From IMG/VR virus record IMGVR_UViG_3300010883_000336, positions 1-27,247 of that record: a stretch of DNA of 27,247 nt. One strand, written 5' to 3'. The translations under genes and the position numbers were made by a program. Below the pieces are notes generated by a model. The model was not told the DNA's origin, ran no database searches, and saw only the letters and a program-made list of their open reading frames with translations. Positions 8,529-21,045 of this stretch are shown in pieces. How positions within the stretch are numbered: the first letter of the stretch is position 1; every line of letters starts with the position of its first letter. The DNA is from a virus.

Positions 8529-9384
8529 TACTTCCCTCCATAAGTTCGTCCTTTAATTTTGAAATTAATAAAAATTTACTAATATTTTCATCACTGACCT
8601 CAGTAATAGAGGAGGATTCGATTAATTGATTGACAACAGGAACCTTTTGTTTTAGAATATTATTCTCATTTTTATTCTTAAATTCTTCTAACGCATTAAT
8701 GGCATTCTTCTTTATTTTTATTAATAATTCGCGGATGGTATCATTTGCGATGGAATCTGCTGAACTTTGAAATGTCATTTCCTTAATTAATGTAGCCTGC
8801 TCAGAATTGAGATATCGACCATATTTTTTATTAAATTTCTCTCTCATAATTCTAACAGTTAACCGATTTACGTTAGCCGATCTTTCTTTCTCAATCTCAG
8901 GTTCAATCTTCTCAATTAGAAGCCACTTATGAACCTTATCAGTATACTCAGCCAATCGTGTTATGTCTGCCCGCGGGCCGCGGCGCCAATCATCTAACAG
9001 AGTTTGAATTGTCGCATAGTGTCTATAATTTTTAACACGTTTACTGTAAAAATCAGATTCATTTAAAGTGTGATTTATTTCCTTTATTAGCATGGCCTTC
9101 TGATGTCGTAACACCTGCCTATCAATGTCATTCGCGGCGTTGGAGGCCTCAACAAGGATCTGTGTTGCTACACTTGGATTGCTGACGGTAGTTTTTACCA
9201 GGGCATTAAAAAGTCTGAACTCGCGATAAAGTTCAGTGCCTGGCTTAAAATGATTCTTAATCACCTTAAGGCACGTGTCAGCCTTAGCGTTGTTACCCTC
9301 AACTAAAGCTTTCGAAACATGCACTAATAGCTGCTCAAAAATAATCCCAACATTTCTTTTTTTATTATGATTTTTAGTTCCCAT
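8509..9384 (-). CDS. helical protein between portal and protease, 291 aa
   Basis: A mostly alpha-helical, basic protein beginning MGTKNHNKKRNVG. Long charged helices run throughout (for example FRLFNALVKTTV, NRLTVRIMREKFNKK, RELLIKIKKNAINALEEFK), with no enzyme motif or membrane segment. It overlaps the portal gene by 11 bases. I chose the ATG at 9384 because GGAG lies 7 bases upstream; the in-frame ATG at 9402 has no site. In T4 the small core genes 67 and 68 occupy this slot between portal and protease. It resembles conserved unnamed proteins seen beside the portal in marine T4-like phages, but that recollection cannot be checked here. A prohead core role is plausible. Confidence 0.8.
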   Translation of the reverse strand: MGTKNHNKKRNVGIIFEQLLVHVSKALVEGNNAKADTCLKVIKNHFKPGTELYREFRLFNALVKTTVSNPSVATQILVEASNAANDIDRQVLRHQKAMLIKEINHTLNESDFYSKRVKNYRHYATIQTLLDDWRRGPRADITRLAEYTDKVHKWLLIEKIEPEIEKERSANVNRLTVRIMREKFNKKYGRYLNSEQATLIKEMTFQSSADSIANDTIRELLIKIKKNAINALEEFKNKNENNILKQKVPVVNQLIESSSITEVSDENISKFLLISKLKDELMEGSNEKVNN

Positions 9385-11395
9385 TTTCCTGCTCCGTGTC
9401 ATCTATTTCAATTTCGAACTCGGGCTCAGCAAGATCTTGTAATTCACAATCCTCATTAATAAGAACCTGCTTCTTATCAATATTTATTGAGTCTTTTAGG
9501 TTATTTAACGTAGATTCTATCTCTGAAGTCATTTTTGTGCTCTGTCTGATCTTTTTATCAATAAATTCATCCATAAATGGACTACGTGATATTAATCCCT
9601 CACCAAACGGATTCCTAAGAAAATCCTGATCATATGGCTGGTTTGAGGTATCCTGTGAACGGGCATTCTTACCGGTGGCTGTCATTTTAAAAAAATCAGG
9701 CATGTGTGTCTTTGATGGGCCGGCTGTGGTCCTTCTTTTTGGTTTAATTGGTTCATTCCAAATATTTCTAATTTGTTGCTGGGCACGAGCCGGTGCTGTC
9801 TCATCATCAATTGAAGGGGTAATTATATCGTCCTCCTCTTCCTCGGGATCATCAATTTCCTCAGGATTATCATTTAGTGAAGTAAGCAAGCGACCAATTG
9901 GCACGTCGGCTGCGAAGAGGTCTTCTAATGCTTCCTCACCTTCCCCGCCTTCCTCACCACCGAAAATATCTTCCTCATCTTCCCCGCCTTCCCCGCCTTT
10001 AGCGGTTACACCCTCAACCTCAAGATCCTTCATCTTGTCATCAAGCTTGCCACTTTCAATTTCATCAATTTCCTGATCTGTTAAGCCAAGAACATTTTTT
10101 CGAATCCAGCGGCGGTCGACGAGACCTTCCGGAGCCTGGGTAGCAATAGCGAACTTTGTATTAATCAATTCCAACTTTTGTTGCTGGGCAACTGAGGATG
10201 GGTTTGATAGCTGAAGCTCAAAATCAATAATATCATCGCTTTCATAGCCATGAGAAAATAAGTGAATCATGGCCAGCTTATTTAACTCGGATAGAACAGT
10301 CTTCTGAATCCTCTGAATGGTTCTACTAAAACGAATGTCCTCCTGGGCCAATGTCGCCTTAGAACCAATATCCTCATCATAGCCAAGATAAGCCTTTGGA
10401 ATTTTAAGTGCAGCAAACAACTTCTTTTGGATGTATTCCACATCCTCGACTGCAGCTGTGTTTGCACCGCCGGCGAGGGTCTCAATCTTAGTTCCTGATT
10501 CACCTCCACGAACTGGAAGGAAGTAATCCTCATCAACGCTTAATGGGTTATAACGAAGATCAACCTGACCAGAATCCTTATTAACGATGCTAGTTCTCTT
10601 AAGGGATGATTGTGCCTGCTCCAAATAATCGGCAACATTTTCCGGTGGAACATTACCAACGTCAATGTAAAAAACGCGGCGCTCAGGGGCACGGATGACA
10701 CGATAAACCAACATGGCATCCTCAATTAATATTAACTGACGCCAAATTCTTCGTGCAGCCTCTAAAACAGAGGATCCATACGGGAGAAATGCATCATTGC
10801 CAAGAAGTCTAAAATGGGTAATCTGCCAATTTTCTAAAACTTGATTCCCCTGTGTAATCCATCTAAACCTAACAGCAGCCGGATTTTCAGGATCGAACCC
10901 TTCTTCCCTTTCTATCTCTGCTATTGGGATTGGAAATGCGTTTGTAACACCAAACTCCGGGGAGAGATCATTGAACAGAAAGAAATCACCGTACTTACAC
11001 AGGTTTCTAATCCACATTACAAGATTAAATTCTATGTTTAATGTATCATAAAATAGGGTCTCTAAGATATCCTGGATTTTTTGATTCTCTGAGTGTATGT
11101 GGAGAACACGGCCGGAGCCGTCTGGGGAGGCAGTCTCTTCTGCATATATGTCCAATGCACTGGCAATCTCAGGGGTTGCCTCCATCTCACTAAAATCACT
11201 ATACCTTGACATTCTATCGAATGCACCATAGGCACTAAGGGTGCTGTTATACACATCACTGTGAGCACGCTTAAAAATCTCAAGGGCAGTGGATGTACTT
11301 GGTCCCTTAAAGTTCCTAACCTTTCTTTTTATGATCGGTCCGGCCCTGAATAGTTTTGTTAAACGTTGAAATAAATTGTAGTTGTTATCTGCCAT
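9374..11395 (-). CDS. gp20: portal vertex protein, gp20-like
   Basis: The portal is the dodecameric ring at one head vertex through which terminase pumps DNA. The N-terminal 460 residues follow the T4 gp20 pattern: 'RYSDFSEMEATPEIASALDIYAEE' (64-87), 'YGDFFLFND' (135-143), 'LPYGSSVLEAARRIWRQL' (204-221), 'MLVYRVIRAPERRVFYIDVGN' (228-248), 'DYFLPVR' (290-296) and 'ALKIPKAYLGYDE' (329-341). At 673 residues it is about 150 longer than T4 gp20 (524). The extra part is C-terminal, starting with a Gly/Glu/Asp-rich low-complexity tract at about 465-535. Only a weak GCAGAG precedes the ATG. The 64-base gap upstream (11396-11459) is AT-rich and may hold a promoter, but no clear consensus is present. 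Confidence 0.95.
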   Translation of the reverse strand: MADNNYNLFQRLTKLFRAGPIIKRKVRNFKGPSTSTALEIFKRAHSDVYNSTLSAYGAFDRMSRYSDFSEMEATPEIASALDIYAEETASPDGSGRVLHIHSENQKIQDILETLFYDTLNIEFNLVMWIRNLCKYGDFFLFNDLSPEFGVTNAFPIPIAEIEREEGFDPENPAAVRFRWITQGNQVLENWQITHFRLLGNDAFLPYGSSVLEAARRIWRQLILIEDAMLVYRVIRAPERRVFYIDVGNVPPENVADYLEQAQSSLKRTSIVNKDSGQVDLRYNPLSVDEDYFLPVRGGESGTKIETLAGGANTAAVEDVEYIQKKLFAALKIPKAYLGYDEDIGSKATLAQEDIRFSRTIQRIQKTVLSELNKLAMIHLFSHGYESDDIIDFELQLSNPSSVAQQQKLELINTKFAIATQAPEGLVDRRWIRKNVLGLTDQEIDEIESGKLDDKMKDLEVEGVTAKGGEGGEDEEDIFGGEEGGEGEEALEDLFAADVPIGRLLTSLNDNPEEIDDPEEEEDDIITPSIDDETAPARAQQQIRNIWNEPIKPKRRTTAGPSKTHMPDFFKMTATGKNARSQDTSNQPYDQDFLRNPFGEGLISRSPFMDEFIDKKIRQSTKMTSEIESTLNNLKDSINIDKKQVLINEDCELQDLAEPEFEIEIDDTEQENGN
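9392..9395 (-). promoter_or_regulatory. Shine-Dalgarno site choosing between two starts
   Basis: GGAG on the minus strand lies seven bases before the ATG at 9384 and downstream of the alternative ATG at 9402, which has no such site. It is embedded in the final codons of the portal gene. Confidence 0.6.
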
Positions 11396-11459: not shown

Positions 11460-13058
11460 TTACTTAAGAAGCCAAGAGAAATCACCATAAAGTTTTGACA
11501 TACTTCCGGACGGATCTGGTAGCTCCGATAGAACTGTTGGCATAAATGGATTCATATTCCTATTTTCCCACGGATTAATGTGTGCAGCGGGAGTTCTGTT
11601 TATCTTCATTGCGTTTAGCATCGCGATGTTTAAATCCGCAGATTGCTTATTATATTTTGGTGATGTGTCATACAGCCAAACACCAATTGCCAAAGCCATA
11701 ACTAAATCATCATGTTGGCCTTTTTGTGCCTGGGCCTTTCTTCCCTTCCACACAAATGTTTTTAATTCCTCATATAACCTGGAAGAATAAATTTTCACCT
11801 GTTTGTTTCGTAGAACCTCCTCCAGTTTAGTTAAAATCTGGGCACGACTCTGTGCGGAAGTTGTAAAACCTATCTTATATATGTCACTGTCACTTGAATA
11901 ATGGGAGGCATAACGATCACTCTCCTTTTTATAATAAAGGCTAGGATAGTCCAGCTCCTTTAACTTCATAATAACGGCATACCCATATGTGTTATTCTCA
12001 GGGCAGAGAATGGCTTTATTGTATCGCATTCCCGCCTCATTAAGAAGCGTGGCAAACTGGTCTGGGGGTAATTTACCTTTATACTCAGCAACAATCTCTG
12101 ATTCATGAGTGTCAATAACATGAAAAGTTGAATAGTCAGCGGCATCGCCACGGGACACATCGGCAGAAATGATATATGTGTGTTCAGTTAGCGCATATTT
12201 CCATATCCAAACACCCATATCAGGACCCCACTTCTCAAGTGGATTTCTTACTGCGGACCGAACATATTCTAAATGTTCTGATGCTAGAAATGTATCGCCA
12301 CTGGCAGTAAAATCACACAGTAACTCCTGTGCAATTTGTCTTGGTGACATGTTCTTTGTTTCATTATTGAACCATTCATCATCACGTTCAGGATGCACGT
12401 CCCACGGGAGCCTAATTGGATTAAACTCATTTTCCCCAGACTCAGCATTCTTATAAAGTTCATAATATTGACCACCGACACCATTTGGTGTTGATAAGAC
12501 AATAGCACGACCGCCTGTTGACAGCGTAGGATATAGACCCATCCAAAGTTCATCAAAGTTTCTTACAAATGCCGCCTCATCAACAATCAATAGTGATAGT
12601 GCCTCTGACCTACCAGCATCATCCGAAGTTGGGACGGCCTTAATTGATGATCCATTACTAAATTCAACCGATTGTTTATTATTGCCGATAACCTCAGACA
12701 TCATTAGCCATGGCGGTAGGTACTGAAGTGCGACCTTTACCTTCTTTATAAAATTCTGAGCGACCGCTAGCTTAGTCGCAATAATCAATATATTTTTATC
12801 ACGATAAAAAATAGATAGCCATACAGCATAGGCTGCTGTCAGGGTGGAAATTCCCAGCTGCCTTGATTTTAGGATGACATTGTACCGATTTTTCATAAAG
12901 TGCTTGACAGCATCATCCTGAAAATCATAGGTGTTAAATGACAAAAGTCCACGGGTCGGATGTTGAATCTTTACATATTTGTTAAAAAAATAGTTTGGAT
13001 CCTTTCCACAACGAACAATCTCTTTGACATGTCGCTTAGTCGGTGAGGAAGTCGCCAT
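11460..13058 (-). CDS. gp17: terminase large subunit, gp17-like packaging ATPase-nuclease
   Basis: This motor cuts concatemeric DNA and drives it into the prohead. The 532 residues contain both expected domains. The ATPase has a P-loop-like 'LKSRQLGISTL' (63-73), Walker B 'LSLLIVDEAAF' with D160-E161, and the coupling motif 'LSTPNG' (188-193). The RNase H-type nuclease has 'ISADVSRGD' with D300, 'LCPENN' with E354, and 'HDDLVMALA' with D450/D451. The lysine of the standard GKS/T is replaced (GIST), but K64 sits at the start of the loop, as in lambda-type terminases. T4 gp17 is 610 residues. The ATG follows the upstream TAG by two bases, with only a weak TTAGGT leader, suggesting coupled translation. 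Confidence 0.97.
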   Translation of the reverse strand: MATSSPTKRHVKEIVRCGKDPNYFFNKYVKIQHPTRGLLSFNTYDFQDDAVKHFMKNRYNVILKSRQLGISTLTAAYAVWLSIFYRDKNILIIATKLAVAQNFIKKVKVALQYLPPWLMMSEVIGNNKQSVEFSNGSSIKAVPTSDDAGRSEALSLLIVDEAAFVRNFDELWMGLYPTLSTGGRAIVLSTPNGVGGQYYELYKNAESGENEFNPIRLPWDVHPERDDEWFNNETKNMSPRQIAQELLCDFTASGDTFLASEHLEYVRSAVRNPLEKWGPDMGVWIWKYALTEHTYIISADVSRGDAADYSTFHVIDTHESEIVAEYKGKLPPDQFATLLNEAGMRYNKAILCPENNTYGYAVIMKLKELDYPSLYYKKESDRYASHYSSDSDIYKIGFTTSAQSRAQILTKLEEVLRNKQVKIYSSRLYEELKTFVWKGRKAQAQKGQHDDLVMALAIGVWLYDTSPKYNKQSADLNIAMLNAMKINRTPAAHINPWENRNMNPFMPTVLSELPDPSGSMSKLYGDFSWLLK

Positions 13059-13480: not shown

Positions 13481-13792
13481 CTATGCCTTATATGATGGAA
13501 ATTGAAGCCTTTTATTCTTAAATTTTTTAATTTCCTCACTTGACGGTCGCCATCCGGCTGTCCACTTAGCGAAATTTCCCTCAGCCCAATTGAGGGCACA
13601 TGAGGCACAACATGAGTATTTTTCATATGATAAGCAGTCCTCATAATCCCGCATGAGCAGCTCGCAAATCGGGCAATCGAGCGGAACTAAATCCATTTTT
13701 TCATTAGGTAATATCACAATATATCCATCACGGAGGATACAGAGCTTACCATTTGGTAATTTGATGGCCTTAGTGGTGTTGAATTCTTGCAT
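13481..13792 (-). CDS. small protein with probable zinc site, 103 aa
   Basis: The centre holds two cysteine pairs, C40-P-I-C43 and C62-A-S-C65, with extra cysteines at 53 and 61. This spacing suits a zinc ribbon or zinc finger. Strand-rich residues precede it (KLPNGKLCILRDGYIVILPNEK) and a basic helix follows (SSEEIKKFKNKRL). A strong AGGAGG lies six bases before the ATG, inside the end of the Mre11-Rad50 gene, which this gene overlaps by 23 bases. Such small zinc proteins can bind nucleic acid or act as structural adaptors. No function can be assigned from sequence alone, and metal binding is inferred only from spacing. Confidence 0.8.
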   Translation of the reverse strand: MQEFNTTKAIKLPNGKLCILRDGYIVILPNEKMDLVPLDCPICELLMRDYEDCLSYEKYSCCASCALNWAEGNFAKWTAGWRPSSEEIKKFKNKRLQFPSYKA

Positions 13793-16700
13793 CCTTGCCC
13801 TCCTTGGTGATGTCCAGAACGTTATCTACAGCATCTTTAATGGCATCTACATGGGATATTACTATGATGTTCCTGAACCATCTTTTAAGTGATTCTAGGA
13901 GTCGATTACATGCCTCTACATTAGTATCATCAAGGGCACCAAACCCCTCATCAATAATAAGTAAATCAGTCTTTGGAAGAGACGACACATTTATTAGGGC
14001 CACACGAATTGCCAGTGATGCCATCATCTTTTCCATGCCGGAGGCGCACTCAATTATTCGGCGGGAGTCACCATAATTGATATAAATGTCCATGACATTT
14101 GAATCAGCGGCTGTTTCCAACTCTACACTAAATCCTGTGACATCCTGTAAGATTTTAGATATTTCACTATTAATAACGGGCAGCTGCGAAAACATGATCT
14201 GCAGGGGAATTCCCCTCTTTGAAACTGCGTTCATGAACAGTTCATACATTCTCCATTGAGTTATCAGTTCCTTATACTCTTTTTCATCACTTCGTAATTT
14301 TTTAATCTCATTCGTTAGCAACCCAACAGACTCGCTAGTTAAGGACCTCTTTGCCGCCAATCCTGACACCTCAATCTCAATGTCAGTAATTTCATTCTTT
14401 AGCCTAGACACAGCTCCTCCGTCTTCATCATTTACAACGCGGATGGACATGTCCTTTAATTGATTATTCAGATTCTCAAGCATGTCAGCAACCTTGCTGA
14501 GATTAACCTCATTCTCATGTAATTTGACTGACATGTCTGAGATTTGGACTTTTATTTCGGATTCCTGTGAAAGAATGTCCTCATACTTCTCAATTTTTTT
14601 CTCAAGATTTTCCTTAAAAACAGCACGAAGTGATATTTTAACCACCTTAATCTTTTCAAGAATATTTTTTATTTTTTGCTGCTGATCTGGAAATAATTTT
14701 TTATTGTTATGGGAGTTCTTAATGAATTTACATGTTGGAAATTTATCCCCACAGGGCACTTCACTGAGAAGTTTTATTGATTTCTCCTGACCTTTAAGCA
14801 GTGTCCCCTCTTTCTCATGCTCATATTCAAGATCAACGAGCGAACGCTCAAGGTCAAATTGTGATTCTAAGTTGGCCTTTAATTCCTCAATTGGAAATTG
14901 ATCCTTTACCTGTTCAATTTTTAGTAATTTAATACGGGCTTCCGCAACCTCTTCATTTGTATTTTTAATTCGAGATCCGTGTTCATTAACAGAAGACCTA
15001 GCTTGATTTATTTTCTTTTTTTGGGACTCAATGTCAGCCTGAGTCACCATGTCCTTATCCTTGCGGGTGGCAAGGGATATTCGTAATTCATTTAATCTAC
15101 TACGTAATTTTATTAATTTATCATCAACATTTTCCCTTTGTTCCAATCTCGAACTCAGCGTCGTGCTCTTTTGATCAATTAATATCCCCCACTCAATATC
15201 AGGTGCCTTTTTTAATAGGATCTTGACCTCAGCTGAATCCTCCTTAGCCTGAAAAAGTATTTCATCAAAAATGTTTAACTCTAAGAATCTGGCTAGAATG
15301 GTCTTTCGTTGGGTGGCACCCTCACGGATAAATGAATTCATTTGGCCTTGACTGGCCAATGATGTCATTAAAAAGTCCTCTGCATTACCAATTAACTTTC
15401 GAAGCGATTTTTCAGTTTCCCTTCTTTGTTCACCAGTCATATCAATAAAATCATTAATGCTTGAATCATACTTAAATAAATTTAATTGTGTTGACGCGTG
15501 TAAGGCACCTCGTTTTGTCTGATGCTTTACTGACTGGCGATCAATTCTATACAACGTACTGTTAACATTAATATCAACACTTGTCTCACAGTGTCCTTTT
15601 CGAGTGTTAATAATGTGCAGATTCTTTATTGGGCCTCGGTCCGTGGTGTTGTACAACCCATACATAATGGCACCAGGAATTGAGGATTTTCCTGTCCTAT
15701 TCTTTCCAAAGATGCCAGTAATACCGCCTAACTTCTCAAAATCAATTATGTTATCCTTACCGTATGCAAATAAATTGGCAAATTTTAATTTTTTAATTGA
15801 CCACTTAACATTCCTAGCGGAGTCAATTCGTGGTATTCTAGCAATGTACCGATTAATCATTTCATCTAATTTTTCCCACTCTGTCTCAGAAATATCCTTA
15901 TCACGGTAGAATTTTCTCATTAACAACATGTGGGTCTTTGGATCCCGGAGGTCTTCCTTAAAAAATGAATCATCATCGGTGGTGATAATGGTATTATCCG
16001 GCTGGTGGTCATACTTGAAAACAATCTCGGACGCAGATTTTCTGTCCTTAAGGGTATTACACAGCTGCCTAATCTCTACCTGACTAATTTGATCCTCTGA
16101 CTTAACTCTAAACCTGGCACCATCTGGGTGGTGTTTTGCATTCTCAACAGTCGTCACAACATCTTCCAGCCATGGAATGGTAACAAAAGGTTGACTGTGG
16201 GGAACCTCATGAAATGTGCTAATAAATGAATTTCTGTCACTAATGTCCCAGAATAGGAATCCCTTTCCTGGGTCCTCACCGTAATTCTGCTGAATGGTGC
16301 TTCCTGGATAGGCAATTCTTCTCTCCTCATCCAAATATTGACACTTGTGAATATCACCTAGGAAGGTAAAATCATAATCCTTGAAAAAGCTAGTCTCAAC
16401 CTCACCCTCAATATCCCAATTAATATCAGTTACCGATCCGTATACACCACCGTGAAAAAGTGCAATGTTGATATCCCCGGGTGTAGGTTGAACATTCTTC
16501 CATCTCTCCTCATCAAAACAGGAAAAAACACACCAATTATAGCCAGGCACTCCGGTGGGATATGTTCCGGAATCCTTGTACAGGTGAAGGTTTGGATTAT
16601 CAAGCGCATTAATAATTGGACTGATCGCGTCCTGACGATGTTTGTTTAAAATTAGACCATCATGATTTCCTAGAATGATATGTGTTGGGGCGATGGATGC

Positions 16701-16910
16701 CAATCCAGTAAACCACCAACTCAGTATATCAATTAATTCCGGAGAAATTCCCTGTGTCTTGGAGTGGACAATGTCACCTCCAACATAAATAACATCCGGA
16801 TTAAGCGCACGGGCCTGCTCAAAGAACCTAGTAAATGATTCTCGATATTCATCATGTCGACTTAGCCCACGAAAATGTATGTCTGCGATATGTATACACT
16901 TAAAACCCAT
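13770..16910 (-). CDS. fused Mre11-type nuclease and Rad50-type ATPase (gp47-gp46 equivalent)
   Basis: One uninterrupted frame of 1046 residues encodes both halves of the recombination nuclease that T4 makes as separate gp47 and gp46 and bacteria as SbcD and SbcC. It would resect DNA ends and open hairpins for recombination-dependent replication. Nuclease part (about 1-240): D10/H12, GGD with D46, GNHD (81-84), H153, and 'FLGDIHK' (183-189). A cap-like linker and helices follow (240-365). ATPase part: Walker A 'GKNRTGKS' (402-409), a Q-loop region 'SLASQGQM' (517-524), a long coiled coil (about 575-890) broken by the hook at C720-C727, signature 'ASGMEK' (956-961), Walker B 'LLIIDE' (983-988), D-loop near 992-994, and H-loop His1020. 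All ATPase motifs are present. The start lies 4 bases after the primase stop with no clear Shine-Dalgarno, implying coupled translation. Fusion and hook spacing are the oddities. Confidence 0.95.
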   Translation of the reverse strand: MGFKCIHIADIHFRGLSRHDEYRESFTRFFEQARALNPDVIYVGGDIVHSKTQGISPELIDILSWWFTGLASIAPTHIILGNHDGLILNKHRQDAISPIINALDNPNLHLYKDSGTYPTGVPGYNWCVFSCFDEERWKNVQPTPGDINIALFHGGVYGSVTDINWDIEGEVETSFFKDYDFTFLGDIHKCQYLDEERRIAYPGSTIQQNYGEDPGKGFLFWDISDRNSFISTFHEVPHSQPFVTIPWLEDVVTTVENAKHHPDGARFRVKSEDQISQVEIRQLCNTLKDRKSASEIVFKYDHQPDNTIITTDDDSFFKEDLRDPKTHMLLMRKFYRDKDISETEWEKLDEMINRYIARIPRIDSARNVKWSIKKLKFANLFAYGKDNIIDFEKLGGITGIFGKNRTGKSSIPGAIMYGLYNTTDRGPIKNLHIINTRKGHCETSVDINVNSTLYRIDRQSVKHQTKRGALHASTQLNLFKYDSSINDFIDMTGEQRRETEKSLRKLIGNAEDFLMTSLASQGQMNSFIREGATQRKTILARFLELNIFDEILFQAKEDSAEVKILLKKAPDIEWGILIDQKSTTLSSRLEQRENVDDKLIKLRSRLNELRISLATRKDKDMVTQADIESQKKKINQARSSVNEHGSRIKNTNEEVAEARIKLLKIEQVKDQFPIEELKANLESQFDLERSLVDLEYEHEKEGTLLKGQEKSIKLLSEVPCGDKFPTCKFIKNSHNNKKLFPDQQQKIKNILEKIKVVKISLRAVFKENLEKKIEKYEDILSQESEIKVQISDMSVKLHENEVNLSKVADMLENLNNQLKDMSIRVVNDEDGGAVSRLKNEITDIEIEVSGLAAKRSLTSESVGLLTNEIKKLRSDEKEYKELITQWRMYELFMNAVSKRGIPLQIMFSQLPVINSEISKILQDVTGFSVELETAADSNVMDIYINYGDSRRIIECASGMEKMMASLAIRVALINVSSLPKTDLLIIDEGFGALDDTNVEACNRLLESLKRWFRNIIVISHVDAIKDAVDNVLDITKEGKDARIQHH

Positions 16911-16914
16911 CTTA

Positions 16915-17877
16915 TCACACTAGCGTCCCGGACTTAATTCCTCTTATAAGGTGTCGTAGTCTTTGGTTCTCATTCCATGCATGGGCGGTGAGGCGATAAT
17001 TCTCAAATTCAGACCTAGGCATCTCACCTACGTCCGAGTACTTTCCGTGTTTAAGCATTCTCACGTTAATTGTATACTGGGAAAATAATTTCGCATATTT
17101 TTGTGCCTTATCAGCTGCATCAGGATCCAACGCTAGTAATACAGGAGTGTTGTTACGAACGATTTTCTGAAATATTGTATAGGTCTCATCCAAATGTGAT
17201 CCAAGTATGCACACGGCATTTGAATTACACTTGGAAAGATCAAATGGACCTTCCACTAAGGTGATCTCGTTTGACCAATCAATATTCAGTTCATTAAAAA
17301 TAAGACTTTTTTTGGCAACCTTCGCGTTTAAATATTTCATTGCCTTTGCTGAATCAATTGTCCGGGCGGCAAAATAATTCAACCGGCCTGTGGCATCAAA
17401 TGAAGGCATGATCACCCGCCGGCGATACTGGCCTGACTGGCATGTCCCAAGTTTAAAATACCATAGGTCCCTGTCAGTCAGGCCGCGTTGGTGGCAGTAT
17501 GTGATTGTATCCCTGACATCGGGATCCTTGGAATTTAAGTGGGCCGCCAATAGTAAAAATCCTTCCGGTAGCAAAACAGGTTCTGGTTGTTTTTCATCAT
17601 TAATATGTGAAAGATCACCAATAGGCCGGCCCTCAAATAATCTTTTAAACTCCTCGAGAAAATTTGGTCGATATTTTTTTATAAGACTGCCAAGCTTCGC
17701 CCCCTTAACAGCACATGACCAACAGTGCCACTGACCAGTTTTAACATGTATTGCTAGCTTTTTCTTGCCGCGGCGTCCACAATCGGGACACTTCACAGCA
17801 ATGTTAAGCCCGTCGGTTGCAACCTCAGCCTTACCAAATATTTTTTCTAAAAATTTGATTAGTGATTTATCACTCAT
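16915..17877 (-). CDS. DNA primase, DnaG/gp61 type
   Basis: This enzyme makes RNA primers for lagging-strand replication. The 320 residues begin with a CHC2-like zinc domain: C30-P-D-C33, then H51-C52-W-S-C55. A linker leads to a core segment 'RRRVIMPSFDATGRLNYFAARTID' (152-175). The TOPRIM catalytic fold follows, with the glutamate motif 'ITLVEGPFDLSK' (E209) and the Asp pair 'LLALDPDAADKA' (D251, D253). T4 gp61 is 342 residues, so length fits. No helicase domain is fused, and no gp41-like helicase lies in the window. It sits between the RuvC-fold gene and the Mre11-Rad50 gene. Only a weak ribosome-binding sequence precedes the ATG; the 39-base gap to the upstream gene shows nothing recognisable. 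Confidence 0.93.
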   Translation of the reverse strand: MSDKSLIKFLEKIFGKAEVATDGLNIAVKCPDCGRRGKKKLAIHVKTGQWHCWSCAVKGAKLGSLIKKYRPNFLEEFKRLFEGRPIGDLSHINDEKQPEPVLLPEGFLLLAAHLNSKDPDVRDTITYCHQRGLTDRDLWYFKLGTCQSGQYRRRVIMPSFDATGRLNYFAARTIDSAKAMKYLNAKVAKKSLIFNELNIDWSNEITLVEGPFDLSKCNSNAVCILGSHLDETYTIFQKIVRNNTPVLLALDPDAADKAQKYAKLFSQYTINVRMLKHGKYSDVGEMPRSEFENYRLTAHAWNENQRLRHLIRGIKSGTLV

Positions 17878-17916: not shown

Positions 17917-18465
17917 TTAAAATAAATTTGTGCCAGCCCGGGCTATCACATAAGCATCAGCCATATCATAACACTCAGGTATGTGGATCTTTAGGCCTTT
18001 TCTTGGACCGCTCTTTAATATCTTCGTGGGCCAACTAAAAGAACCGTTTAGTTCATTTGAAACCCAATCGACCACCTGCTCCTTAGTCGGTTTACCGCCC
18101 TTGGACTTCTTTATAATTTTAAGGCCTAGGCATTTCCTGGCAATGTTAACATTAATGTGCTCAGGTTCAAATTGAAACTGCTGAGCACAGAGATATGACA
18201 CGATACCATTAAACCTAGAAAGGGTTAATAATGTTTTTGCAGATGAAAAACCAGGCCTGAATGCCTGGAGATTTTCCTCAATATACACCTTACTGACATT
18301 AAATTTTATATGAATATCTGTCAATTTCGCACGAAATTCCTCAGCCTTCACATAAGTTGTCTTTAATTTACCAAGTGGGATAAATCCCATTTCAATAAAA
18401 TTGCCATCTTCATTTAGAATGCACCAACCGGTACATGATGTTGAAACGTCTAAACCGAGAATCAT
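17917..18465 (-). CDS. RuvC-fold Holliday junction endonuclease
   Basis: The 182 residues have the RuvC/RNase H-like layout: 'ILGLDVSTSCTGWCIL' with D6 (2-17), 'VYIEENLQAF' with E63/E64, and near the C-terminus 'CYDMADAYVIARAG' with D167 and D170. These four acidic positions match a metal-dependent junction resolvase. Such an enzyme would cut branched DNA before packaging, the job done in T4 by the unrelated endonuclease VII (gp49). A basic stretch (KIIKKSKGGKPTKEQ, 116-130) may contact DNA. The ATG lies 3 bases from the preceding stop, without a visible Shine-Dalgarno, so it is probably translationally coupled. Substrate is inferred from fold; other RuvC-like proteins act on different branched or RNA-DNA substrates. 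Confidence 0.9.
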   Translation of the reverse strand: MILGLDVSTSCTGWCILNEDGNFIEMGFIPLGKLKTTYVKAEEFRAKLTDIHIKFNVSKVYIEENLQAFRPGFSSAKTLLTLSRFNGIVSYLCAQQFQFEPEHINVNIARKCLGLKIIKKSKGGKPTKEQVVDWVSNELNGSFSWPTKILKSGPRKGLKIHIPECYDMADAYVIARAGTNLF

Positions 18466-18468
18466 ATT

Positions 18469-21045
18469 TTAAAAATCGAACTTTACCTTAAACATGTATC
18501 TGTCAGAATCCCGTTTAATAACAGGCTGTGCTAAATTCACCTTACCAATAATATTAAAGTTATCATCGTGTAAGTTTAATCCAGTAATATAAACAAATTT
18601 TTCTGACTTTTCCCACTCATTATCAGATGGTACCATGTCACTATAGGTTGGATTTGTTGAGGAGTTAATCATTCCGGCCGGACAGCTAATATTTAATGCC
18701 AAGGCATGCATATTTCTCTCACCTCTAAACTCCACTTCGTATTGGTTGGCACCAAAGAAATACAGGTGTGGGCTCTTAATAACAATTATACCTTCATCAT
18801 ACAGGATGTTTCCCACGTTATTCCAGGTGGCATGTTTAGTTAACGAATCGGCCCTGTATAAGCCCCCCTGTCCATCATCTTTTAAGGTGACTGCTACCTT
18901 TCCACCTGATCCACTGATGTCGCTATCACTTAATTTAAATGTTCCGGGTCGGATTCTATCACCATAAAATAAGTTAGAAACATTAAAAAATACCACCTGG
19001 TTTGATGAATTATCACCGGTCTCCTCGAGGATCCTAAATTGACCTTTTCCGGTGGTAGCTCCCTTTATAGTAGTTCCGGACCCATCACGATAATTAAAAG
19101 CGCTGGCACCGGCGAGATCATCAAGCATTGAAATATTGACATCCAATTTCTCGGTGGCATACGTGCTAGAAGCACCATTGTCTTCATAGCTACCCAGAAA
19201 ATCGTTATCAGGAACAATGTTATTTAGAGAAATTAGGGAATTGTCAAGAATTTCAAAATCATTAACGAAACTACCCATTAGGGAACCGGTAGCAGGATTA
19301 TTAACAATGGTACCACTGTCTAGGAGTGTAAAATCTGACCTAAATTTACCATTATCACAGGGCATTAATGTCAAGGCACGGCGCCTATTAAAAGCTGATA
19401 TTGGCCTTGGATTAGCCCCTGTACCCCCATCATCGTAAAAATACTCATTTGGAAAAAAGTCCTCTGACAACGCGGTCTGTATCGAACCGGTGAGCTTAAA
19501 CAACCTTGGGTACAGGCCCTCCTTAAATTCCCTACAGAAATTTTCCAAATTAATATCATGGCCTGCAACTGAGAATGCCATCCTGGCATTAAATGGGGAC
19601 TCAGTAATATGACCTGTTTTATTAACGCAAGGAGTGTCAGGCACCTGTCTGGATCCGCCTGATTCCTTCACGAAAAATGGTGGCAAATAAAATAATAAAT
19701 TTTTGTCCTTTATCGATGATGATGAAATACCGCGTAACGAAGACGAATAAATCTGATCGACATTCTTCCACTTATCGTAAATTCTAATGTCATGGATTTC
19801 TGCGTTTAGCGGATGATTAAGCGCGTAACCTTCCGGCTGTGCCATCCCCGTGTCACTGCTAAGCTGCTTTACACCTTCTTCGGAACCGGCCTTAGAATTA
19901 AAAAAGTTTGTTGTAAGGTAATTGGCGGCGCCCTTATTCGATCCCTCAAAAAAGTTTCCAATGAATAATGCTCCAGGAAAATTACCTCCCATCGTATCCT
20001 CACCCCATGTTGCGCTGGTAACGCTAGCGGATGGAACATAAAATTGTGAATCTTCCACACCATCGATCACAAATGACCCAGTTCCCTGATTAATGGAATT
20101 TGTGCCCCATCTTATGGCAACATGGTGCCACTTATTTCTCTTAAGAATATTGTCAGATGTTAGAAATAATAAATCGCGGGATGTACGCTCGCCCTCACCG
20201 TAATTTCTACTATTATTTGCCGCATAGGTAGCACTGCTTGGCGGGATGGTGGTACTAGCACTCAGCTGCAACATTATTCGATATGCGTCGGTTAATCCCT
20301 TTGAATCCTTTTGGCTACCACTTACAAGGGACACTGCATAACATCCAGACATGTGCATGACTGTCCCGGCCTGAAAATCATCGCCATGGCGGTCAAAAGT
20401 ATACCTAGGATTAATCCAAAATTGAAATGTAAACTCACCATCTGGCATGTATGGTACATGACCGGTCCGTTGGCTACCTGACGATGGGTATATAATGACA
20501 GACTCTTTTGGTACCATACTGGATGTGAAAAAATTCAAACAGTTAAAATTAGTGTATGCCCAGTGCGCACTTGGATAGGCTGTCCGATAGTAGGGAAATA
20601 AAACCTTCTTAACTGTTGATTTTTTTAGTGATCCAGAATGAAGAGAGCCCTTCTTCTCGCCATACGGACTGTTAAAAGGCACACCTGGAACAAACCTGGT
20701 GATCTCTTTCTCGGTGAGCCTGTACTCCGGAGTATCAGTGGCATTGTACAGATTAAGTAATGAACCGGCAACACCCTGCAGGTCTGTCGGATCAGCCTTC
20801 AGCCTCATCTTAAGGGTTGCCTCATTAAACTGATCAAAGGCAACAGCTAGCTTGGCTTCGTCAAAACTATCCACCTCCTCCAGACTCTCGAGATTAAAGA
20901 ACCCCTTTTCTCTGTTGGTCCTCTCCGCATAAACAAAGACAGATCCGGTAACACCGACGGTGGAAGAAGATGAGAATAGACGATACGGGGACGTAGTAAC
21001 CGTCAGGTTCTCAAGATTATCACGGGTAATTTTTATAATTGACAT
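18469..21045 (-). CDS. large virion protein with LamG-like domain, 858 aa
   Basis: A large, Ser/Gly/Asn-rich protein without enzyme motifs. Residues about 200-430 look like a LamG/concanavalin-type beta sandwich: 'FTFQFWINPRYTF' (205-217), 'NKWHHVAIRWG' (304-314), 'GSFVIDGVED' (323-332), and the closing 'AEIHDIRIYDKW' strand near 415-430. Such domains often bind carbohydrate, so a host-surface or fibre role is plausible. The last 80 residues (NPTYSDM onward, then PVIKRD and a terminal DF) match the C-terminus of the neighbouring 423-residue protein, suggesting a shared attachment module. No signal peptide is apparent. The 40-base leader upstream is GC-rich and palindromic, and lacks an obvious ribosome-binding site. 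Virion location is inferred from domain type and neighbours. Confidence 0.88.
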   Translation of the reverse strand: MSIIKITRDNLENLTVTTSPYRLFSSSSTVGVTGSVFVYAERTNREKGFFNLESLEEVDSFDEAKLAVAFDQFNEATLKMRLKADPTDLQGVAGSLLNLYNATDTPEYRLTEKEITRFVPGVPFNSPYGEKKGSLHSGSLKKSTVKKVLFPYYRTAYPSAHWAYTNFNCLNFFTSSMVPKESVIIYPSSGSQRTGHVPYMPDGEFTFQFWINPRYTFDRHGDDFQAGTVMHMSGCYAVSLVSGSQKDSKGLTDAYRIMLQLSASTTIPPSSATYAANNSRNYGEGERTSRDLLFLTSDNILKRNKWHHVAIRWGTNSINQGTGSFVIDGVEDSQFYVPSASVTSATWGEDTMGGNFPGALFIGNFFEGSNKGAANYLTTNFFNSKAGSEEGVKQLSSDTGMAQPEGYALNHPLNAEIHDIRIYDKWKNVDQIYSSSLRGISSSSIKDKNLLFYLPPFFVKESGGSRQVPDTPCVNKTGHITESPFNARMAFSVAGHDINLENFCREFKEGLYPRLFKLTGSIQTALSEDFFPNEYFYDDGGTGANPRPISAFNRRRALTLMPCDNGKFRSDFTLLDSGTIVNNPATGSLMGSFVNDFEILDNSLISLNNIVPDNDFLGSYEDNGASSTYATEKLDVNISMLDDLAGASAFNYRDGSGTTIKGATTGKGQFRILEETGDNSSNQVVFFNVSNLFYGDRIRPGTFKLSDSDISGSGGKVAVTLKDDGQGGLYRADSLTKHATWNNVGNILYDEGIIVIKSPHLYFFGANQYEVEFRGERNMHALALNISCPAGMINSSTNPTYSDMVPSDNEWEKSEKFVYITGLNLHDDNFNIIGKVNLAQPVIKRDSDRYMFKVKFDF

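Follow-up and report, generated by a model that had tools for sequence, protein, structure and literature searches.

A phage genome fragment of 27,247 bases, an IMG/VR virus record referred to here as the window, very probably encodes the phage's own one-chain Mre11-Rad50 (SbcDC) end-processing enzyme, a fusion of the mimivirus R555 type that would act as a paired-head dimer serving recombination-dependent replication. The analysis shows directly its domain content, its catalytic and ATP-binding residues, a conserved junction in a single frame, and a neighborhood of replication and recombination genes.

A Nuclease and an ATPase Share One Open Reading Frame

The fused gene is a single ATG-initiated frame with zero internal stops, in which the nuclease comes first and the Rad50/SbcC head, coiled coil, and hook follow in one chain. 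The stop of the primase gene and the start of the fused gene are separated by 4 bases, and a small ORF overlaps the 3′ end, indicating that the fused gene lies inside a tightly packed block. The coordinates of the gene, its parts, and its neighbors are given in Table 1. At window positions 18469–21045, an 858-codon ORF carries a concanavalin A-like (Laminin_G_3) domain near 198–357, and its product is perhaps a tail or head decoration protein.

Table 1. Fused gene, its parts, and neighboring genes, in window positions
Feature	Position	Strand	Evidence
Fused Mre11/SbcD-Rad50/SbcC gene, 1046 codons	13770..16910	-	ORF, Pfam, PHROG, homologous loci
Mre11-type nuclease domain, residues 1-236	16203..16910	-	Metallophos, conservation, SbcD structural match
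Capping domain, about residues 237-317 (model 242-317)	15960..16202	-	AlphaFold2 model; SbcD chains align to ~300
Two helices, 324-334 and 342-358, at the position of the Rad50-binding helix-loop-helix of Mre11	15837..15941	-	AlphaFold2 model, spacing
Linker between Mre11 and Rad50 parts, residues 359-368 (10 residues)	15807..15836	-	AlphaFold2 model, spacing
Rad50 N lobe, 369-545, Walker A K408, Q-loop Q521	15276..15806	-	Pfam, conservation, structural alignment
Ascending coiled coil, 546-717	14760..15275	-	AlphaFold2 model
Hook, 718-730, C720-x6-C727	14721..14759	-	Conservation
Descending coiled coil, 731-896	14223..14720	-	AlphaFold2 model
Rad50 C lobe, 897-1046, SGMEK, Walker B, D-loop, H1020	13773..14222	-	Pfam, conservation, structural alignment
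DNA primase, conserved neighbor upstream of the fused gene	16915..17877	-	phrog_47 1.9e-39; synteny
RuvC-like Holliday junction resolvase, conserved neighbor	17917..18465	-	phrog_159 8.8e-12; synteny
Small ORF, overlaps the fused gene at its 3′ end and is kept beside it	13481..13792	-	ORF list, synteny
T4-type large subunit of the terminase, gene conserved downstream	11460..13058	-	Domain/PHROG matches, synteny
T4-type portal protein (Gp20)	9374..11395	-	Portal_T4 5.1e-76

Both domains were recognized by Pfam, in agreement with the one-frame fusion of 1046 codons claimed in the original prediction. Metallophos (calcineurin-like nuclease) matched residues 4–189 (1.8e-12), and AAA_23 matched residues 374–613 (9.2e-08). 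Toward the C terminus, SMC_N (residues 755–1037, 5.9e-08) and SbcC_Walker_B (residues 953–1006, 1.6e-04) each scored under their curated cut-offs, and the SbcC-like PHROG phrog_77 matched the protein from residue 248 onward (1.7e-54).

An AlphaFold2 monomer model of the window protein was built with 71 homologues, on an alignment that left out two rows from phage records (mean pLDDT 84.9, pTM 0.48); in it, the strands and helices of the nuclease extend to about residue 235. In structural alignments, Rad50/SbcC heads matched residues 368–1046 (3av0_B, Z 30.8, rmsd 5.2, 359 aligned; 7yzo_D, Z 30.4, rmsd 3.2, 352 aligned), and SbcD chains matched the N-terminal part (S. aureus SbcD 7dog_A on residues 2–300, Z 25.8, rmsd 2.9, 275 aligned; the nuclease-capping chain 4lu9_C, Z 25.2). 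Residues 320–365 had been proposed as the place of the Rad50-binding helices of Mre11, and this was the right stretch, since the model gives two helices followed by the linker there. Because the aligned SbcD chains stop short of these helices, equating them with the Mre11 helix-loop-helix is based on where they lie and on their secondary structure.

Helices and linker belong to the most variable stretches of the protein, with a mean entropy of 2.5–2.9 bits, similar to that of the coiled coil. Such poor conservation, together with relatives that operate from two ORFs cut elsewhere, would fit a chain that is cut into two proteins after translation and then acts as an ordinary two-subunit complex. 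However, the distance from D320 to W370 is 49–51 residues in 69 of 71 homologues despite the variable helix and linker sequence, as expected of a tether with a set geometry, and no conserved cleavage motif was seen. Posttranslational cutting is therefore very unlikely, and a chain that stays whole is the preferred reading.

Active-Site, ATPase, and Hook Residues

The nuclease motifs (D10/H12, G45-D46-xx-H49, G81-N82-H83-D84, H153, and G185-D186-I-H188) and the ATPase residues (Walker A K408, Q521, SGMEK 957–961, Walker B D987-E988, D994, and H1020) were kept in nearly all of 82 fused homologues. Together with the Pfam matches, this conservation upholds the nuclease-first order, the complete phosphoesterase motifs, and the complete Rad50 head described in the original prediction. 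The ATPase signature SGMEK is a departure from the textbook Rad50 signature.

The nuclease of E. coli and Thermotoga SbcCD carries the active-site motif GHIH. In the fused protein, the place of its first, metal-binding His is taken by Asp186, which is Asp in 82/82 fused sequences, and a second motif reads GDxxH (G45-D46-I-V-H49 in the window), with His in 81/82. Because Asp186 replaces this metal-binding His, the strength or type of the nuclease may differ, judging by sequence. GDxxH alone is also present in split Herelleviridae nucleases, and the T5-like split nuclease of Erwinia phage KEY has GDLH, showing that Asp186 is not unique to fusions. Since each single substitution also occurs in split nucleases, only the pair of GDxxH and Asp is telling.

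At the tip of the coiled coil, the window protein has two cysteines in C720-GDKFPT-C727, spaced as C-x6-C instead of CxxC. The C-x6-C spacing is present in 79 of 82 sequences, and hook-mediated dimerization is thus not assured. A CxxC hook is present in three outlying fused phages (L005, L006, and L008), in T4, and in Herelleviridae.

The Fused Form in Related Phages

Scanning IMG/VR with the initial alignment yielded at least 600 stretches, at least 576 of them encoding relatives, and the best 80 were kept; together with the matches of an earlier scan, they make up a set of 83 loci. In 83/83 of these loci, which come from independent metagenomes at 27–62% identity, a single open frame runs across the nuclease-Rad50 junction, and the two parts are joined in every one of the best 80 of the at least 576 relatives. 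Full-length single ORFs are found in 75 loci, six are truncated by the contig end, and two are re-split elsewhere. The only named isolate among the full-length matches listed, Microcystis phage Mel-JY01 (190 kb), has a single CDS of 1066 aa.

These homologues bear on the possibility that two adjacent genes were joined by an error of assembly or sequencing, for which there is a precedent. Listeria phage LMTA-57, annotated with a protein of 1009 aa, was rejected as a further fusion, as it differs from P100 by single A residues in two homopolymers. These A residues decide whether one, two, or three ORFs are read (L009:2917–5946 for LMTA-57 and L183:2087–5118 for P100), and in P100 the nuclease and the ATPase lie in different frames; one of the two records is probably in error. 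Isolated fusion calls therefore need care. The window gene is not such a case, because the joined frame in independent metagenomes and in the isolate Mel-JY01 refutes an artefact, the probability of which is negligible. The same loci exclude an interruption of the frame at residues 240–370 by a stop or frameshift, which had been named as one observation that would overturn the fusion.

The gene order RuvC-like resolvase, primase, fused gene, two small ORFs, terminase, and portal was found in nearly all loci with enough flank, and T4-like genes (portal Gp20, terminase, and major head protein) surround the fused loci. Searches of Mel-JY01 and of 11 long contigs turned up no second ATPase-nuclease pair, the fused gene being the only AAA_23 match above the cut-off; a twelfth long contig (G012) gave no such match, the fused gene itself being missed by the model. 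Phages LR756508 and LR756501 and some contigs carry further phosphoesterases or AAA_23 matches elsewhere. As the window is a 27-kb fragment, its genome may still hold a second, split pair outside it.

Lamassu and JetABC chains were among the Foldseek matches, merely as general SMC relatives, and could point to a defence or anti-defence SMC-nuclease instead of a recombination enzyme. However, the best structural scores go to Rad50/SbcC and SbcD chains, the gene is part of a conserved core block, flanked by primase and terminase, and it is the only SbcC/SbcD-type pair found in the long relatives searched. A defence function is very unlikely on these grounds, and a recombination enzyme is the preferred reading.

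A quick 75-row tree placed fused and re-split sequences together on one side of a branch with 99% SH-aLRT, opposite the sampled split phage pairs, with long branches on both sides. It had been asked whether the fused form defines a clade; here it separates from the sampled split pairs, and the quick tree and its long branches make this weak evidence. Because of these long branches, the tree does not distinguish one fusion event from several. On the WOR-3 bacterial chromosome CP070664.1 (L094:5959–8055), a 698-codon frame matches residues 3–675 of the fusion, with relatives of the primase and the RuvC-like resolvase upstream; this frame is possibly a broken prophage gene.

Relatives Re-split inside the Nuclease

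A second scan gave 30 re-split loci, near-duplicates included (L104–L130, L134, L142, and L143), in which a cut divides the fused gene just past motif V (GDIHxxQ), inside the nuclease. In LR756508 (L007:5965–10190), the cut coincides with theirs and comes with a 1-kb insert. At its end, the N piece carries an acidic tail (net charge −2 to −8 in the 30; mean −5.8 over 31 rows including L007), and the C piece starts with a basic strand (+2 to +9 in the 30, the L007 head being left out). The N stop and C start overlap by 4 bases in many of these loci. The window's own protein is of the short, uncut type (GDIHKCQYLDEERRIAYPGS). At L178:307–909, an N piece with a tail starting REVNII was seen, with no C piece within the next 4 kb.

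A similar extension is present, unsplit, in L082. The fold model of this protein (pLDDT 91), built on an alignment without C pieces, has a strand at 194–205, a helix at 207–212, and strands at 217–222 and 225–237, and the cut of the other proteins falls near the turn at 223–224. We infer pairing between the acidic strand of the N piece and the basic strand of the C piece.

A homing-endonuclease-like ORF of 300 aa lies in the gap in L121 (2979–3878) and L124 (4686–5603) (phrog_3339, 4.1e-17), and L118 (4673–4822) and L119 hold a deletion remnant in which only the first and last residues of the endonuclease ORF are left. Searches of L121 and L007 for Rfam families (e.g., group I intron) gave nothing above the gathering score. 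On the tree, the gene must have switched between the fused and the re-split form at least six times, and L121, with its endonuclease, is sister to a fused gene, suggesting recurrence or exchange of the split.

We lean slightly toward an origin in which a homing endonuclease cut the nuclease beside motif V in a subset of the phages, with the Mre11-Rad50 border still covalent. The acidic tail and the basic strand would then form a beta-alpha-beta-beta mini-domain clamp, and the split would outlast the loss of the endonuclease. No report of a re-split SbcD/SbcC (Mre11-Rad50) gene was found in the open-access literature, and we know of no other Mre11-Rad50 enzyme divided at such a place. The re-split relatives would offer a natural test of how a nuclease domain tolerates a cut beside its active site. 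Parallels are the insertion of mobE in Aeh1 nrdA and of mobA in T4 gene 60 (PMC2988022).

Proposed Mechanism

We infer a dimer in which two chains would pair at their Rad50 heads (ATP-sandwiched, with the SGMEK signature) as well as at the Mre11 nuclease dimer interface. Such a homodimer would have the customary two nucleases and two heads, each nuclease being matched to its ATPase in cis. Helices 324–358, before the linker, would dock on the coiled-coil root of their own chain, like the separate Mre11 helices of Thermotoga. In the proposed activity, ATP hydrolysis would gate DNA ends into the nuclease, and the resected ends would feed recombination-dependent phage replication, a pathway in which the neighboring primase and Holliday junction resolvase may also act. 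The tether may plausibly alter how the nuclease engages the head, as had been suggested. Because partner matching is fixed in cis, the fused protein is a natural tethered construct for probing Mre11-Rad50 engagement.

Comparison with Known Systems

Each part of the window protein shares its fold with E. coli and Thermotoga SbcCD (Mre11-Rad50) by structural alignment, whereas those enzymes consist of two separate chains. The T4 proteins gp47 and gp46 have the same domains and the same presumed role in recombination-dependent replication, but their genes are separate, with 46.1 and 46.2 lying in between, and the proteins carry a GHFH motif and a CPTC hook. Two separate genes are also found in Goe3, Remus, Sf-FS3, KEY, and Moorella phage MTATph1. 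The fused gene of Mel-JY01 (WWT39521.1) is one CDS with the same order at 29% identity, a primase just upstream, and no second copy found. It differs in its CxxC hook, and in the stretch read the terminase does not adjoin the gene.

The novelty implied by the original prediction does not hold, since Mre11/Rad50 fusions, including the helix and linker argument, were described in 2011 by Yoshida, Claverie and Ogata in mimivirus R555, Bacillus phage 0305phi8-36, bacteria, plasmids, and eukaryotes, with a Clostridium kluyveri plasmid and Dictyostelium among the carriers (PMC3175470). The known fusions fall outside the canonical clades and are not monophyletic, and the fusion was argued to fit the geometry of the Thermotoga complex, in which the C end of Mre11 is close to the N end of Rad50 and a linker of 9–12 residues would keep the complex (PMC3175470). 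Homologues of R555 are abundant in aquatic viral metagenomes, on scaffolds that carry phage genes such as primases (PMC3175470), and this account suits the window gene well. The original prediction had also counted a fusion routine in T4-like phages against itself. In this clade, with its T4-like neighbors and its joined junctions in the best 80 of at least 576 relatives, it is routine, whereas classical T4 keeps gp47 and gp46 separate. Having been described in 2011 and being the normal form in a large related aquatic phage family, the fusion is ordinary for this phage group.

The window protein resembles the published fusions in being a single chain with the nuclease first, then a capping and helix-loop-helix region, a short linker, and the Rad50 head (PMC3175470). 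In the model, the region is of the size expected for the capping and helix-loop-helix parts, and its linker falls within the published range. The 0305phi8-36 protein is without the capping and helix-loop-helix part and one P-loop segment (PMC3175470), both of which the window protein has. R555 has GDxxH for GDxxD and Asp for His206 of P. furiosus (PMC3175470), and, by this published description, the window protein has both substitutions. Unlike R555, it belongs to a tailed phage with T4-like structural genes and has 1046 rather than 1351 residues. The four best structural matches in BFVD were giant-virus proteins of 969–1389 residues, with alignments of more than 1100 columns (e.g., Tupanvirus, 5.9e-60); these model-based matches of fused size point toward shared descent with R555. 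The finding mainly adds a large, abundant phage clade to the known Mre11/Rad50 fusions, and the window gene is a fresh member of these already described fusions, nearest to the mimivirus R555 type.
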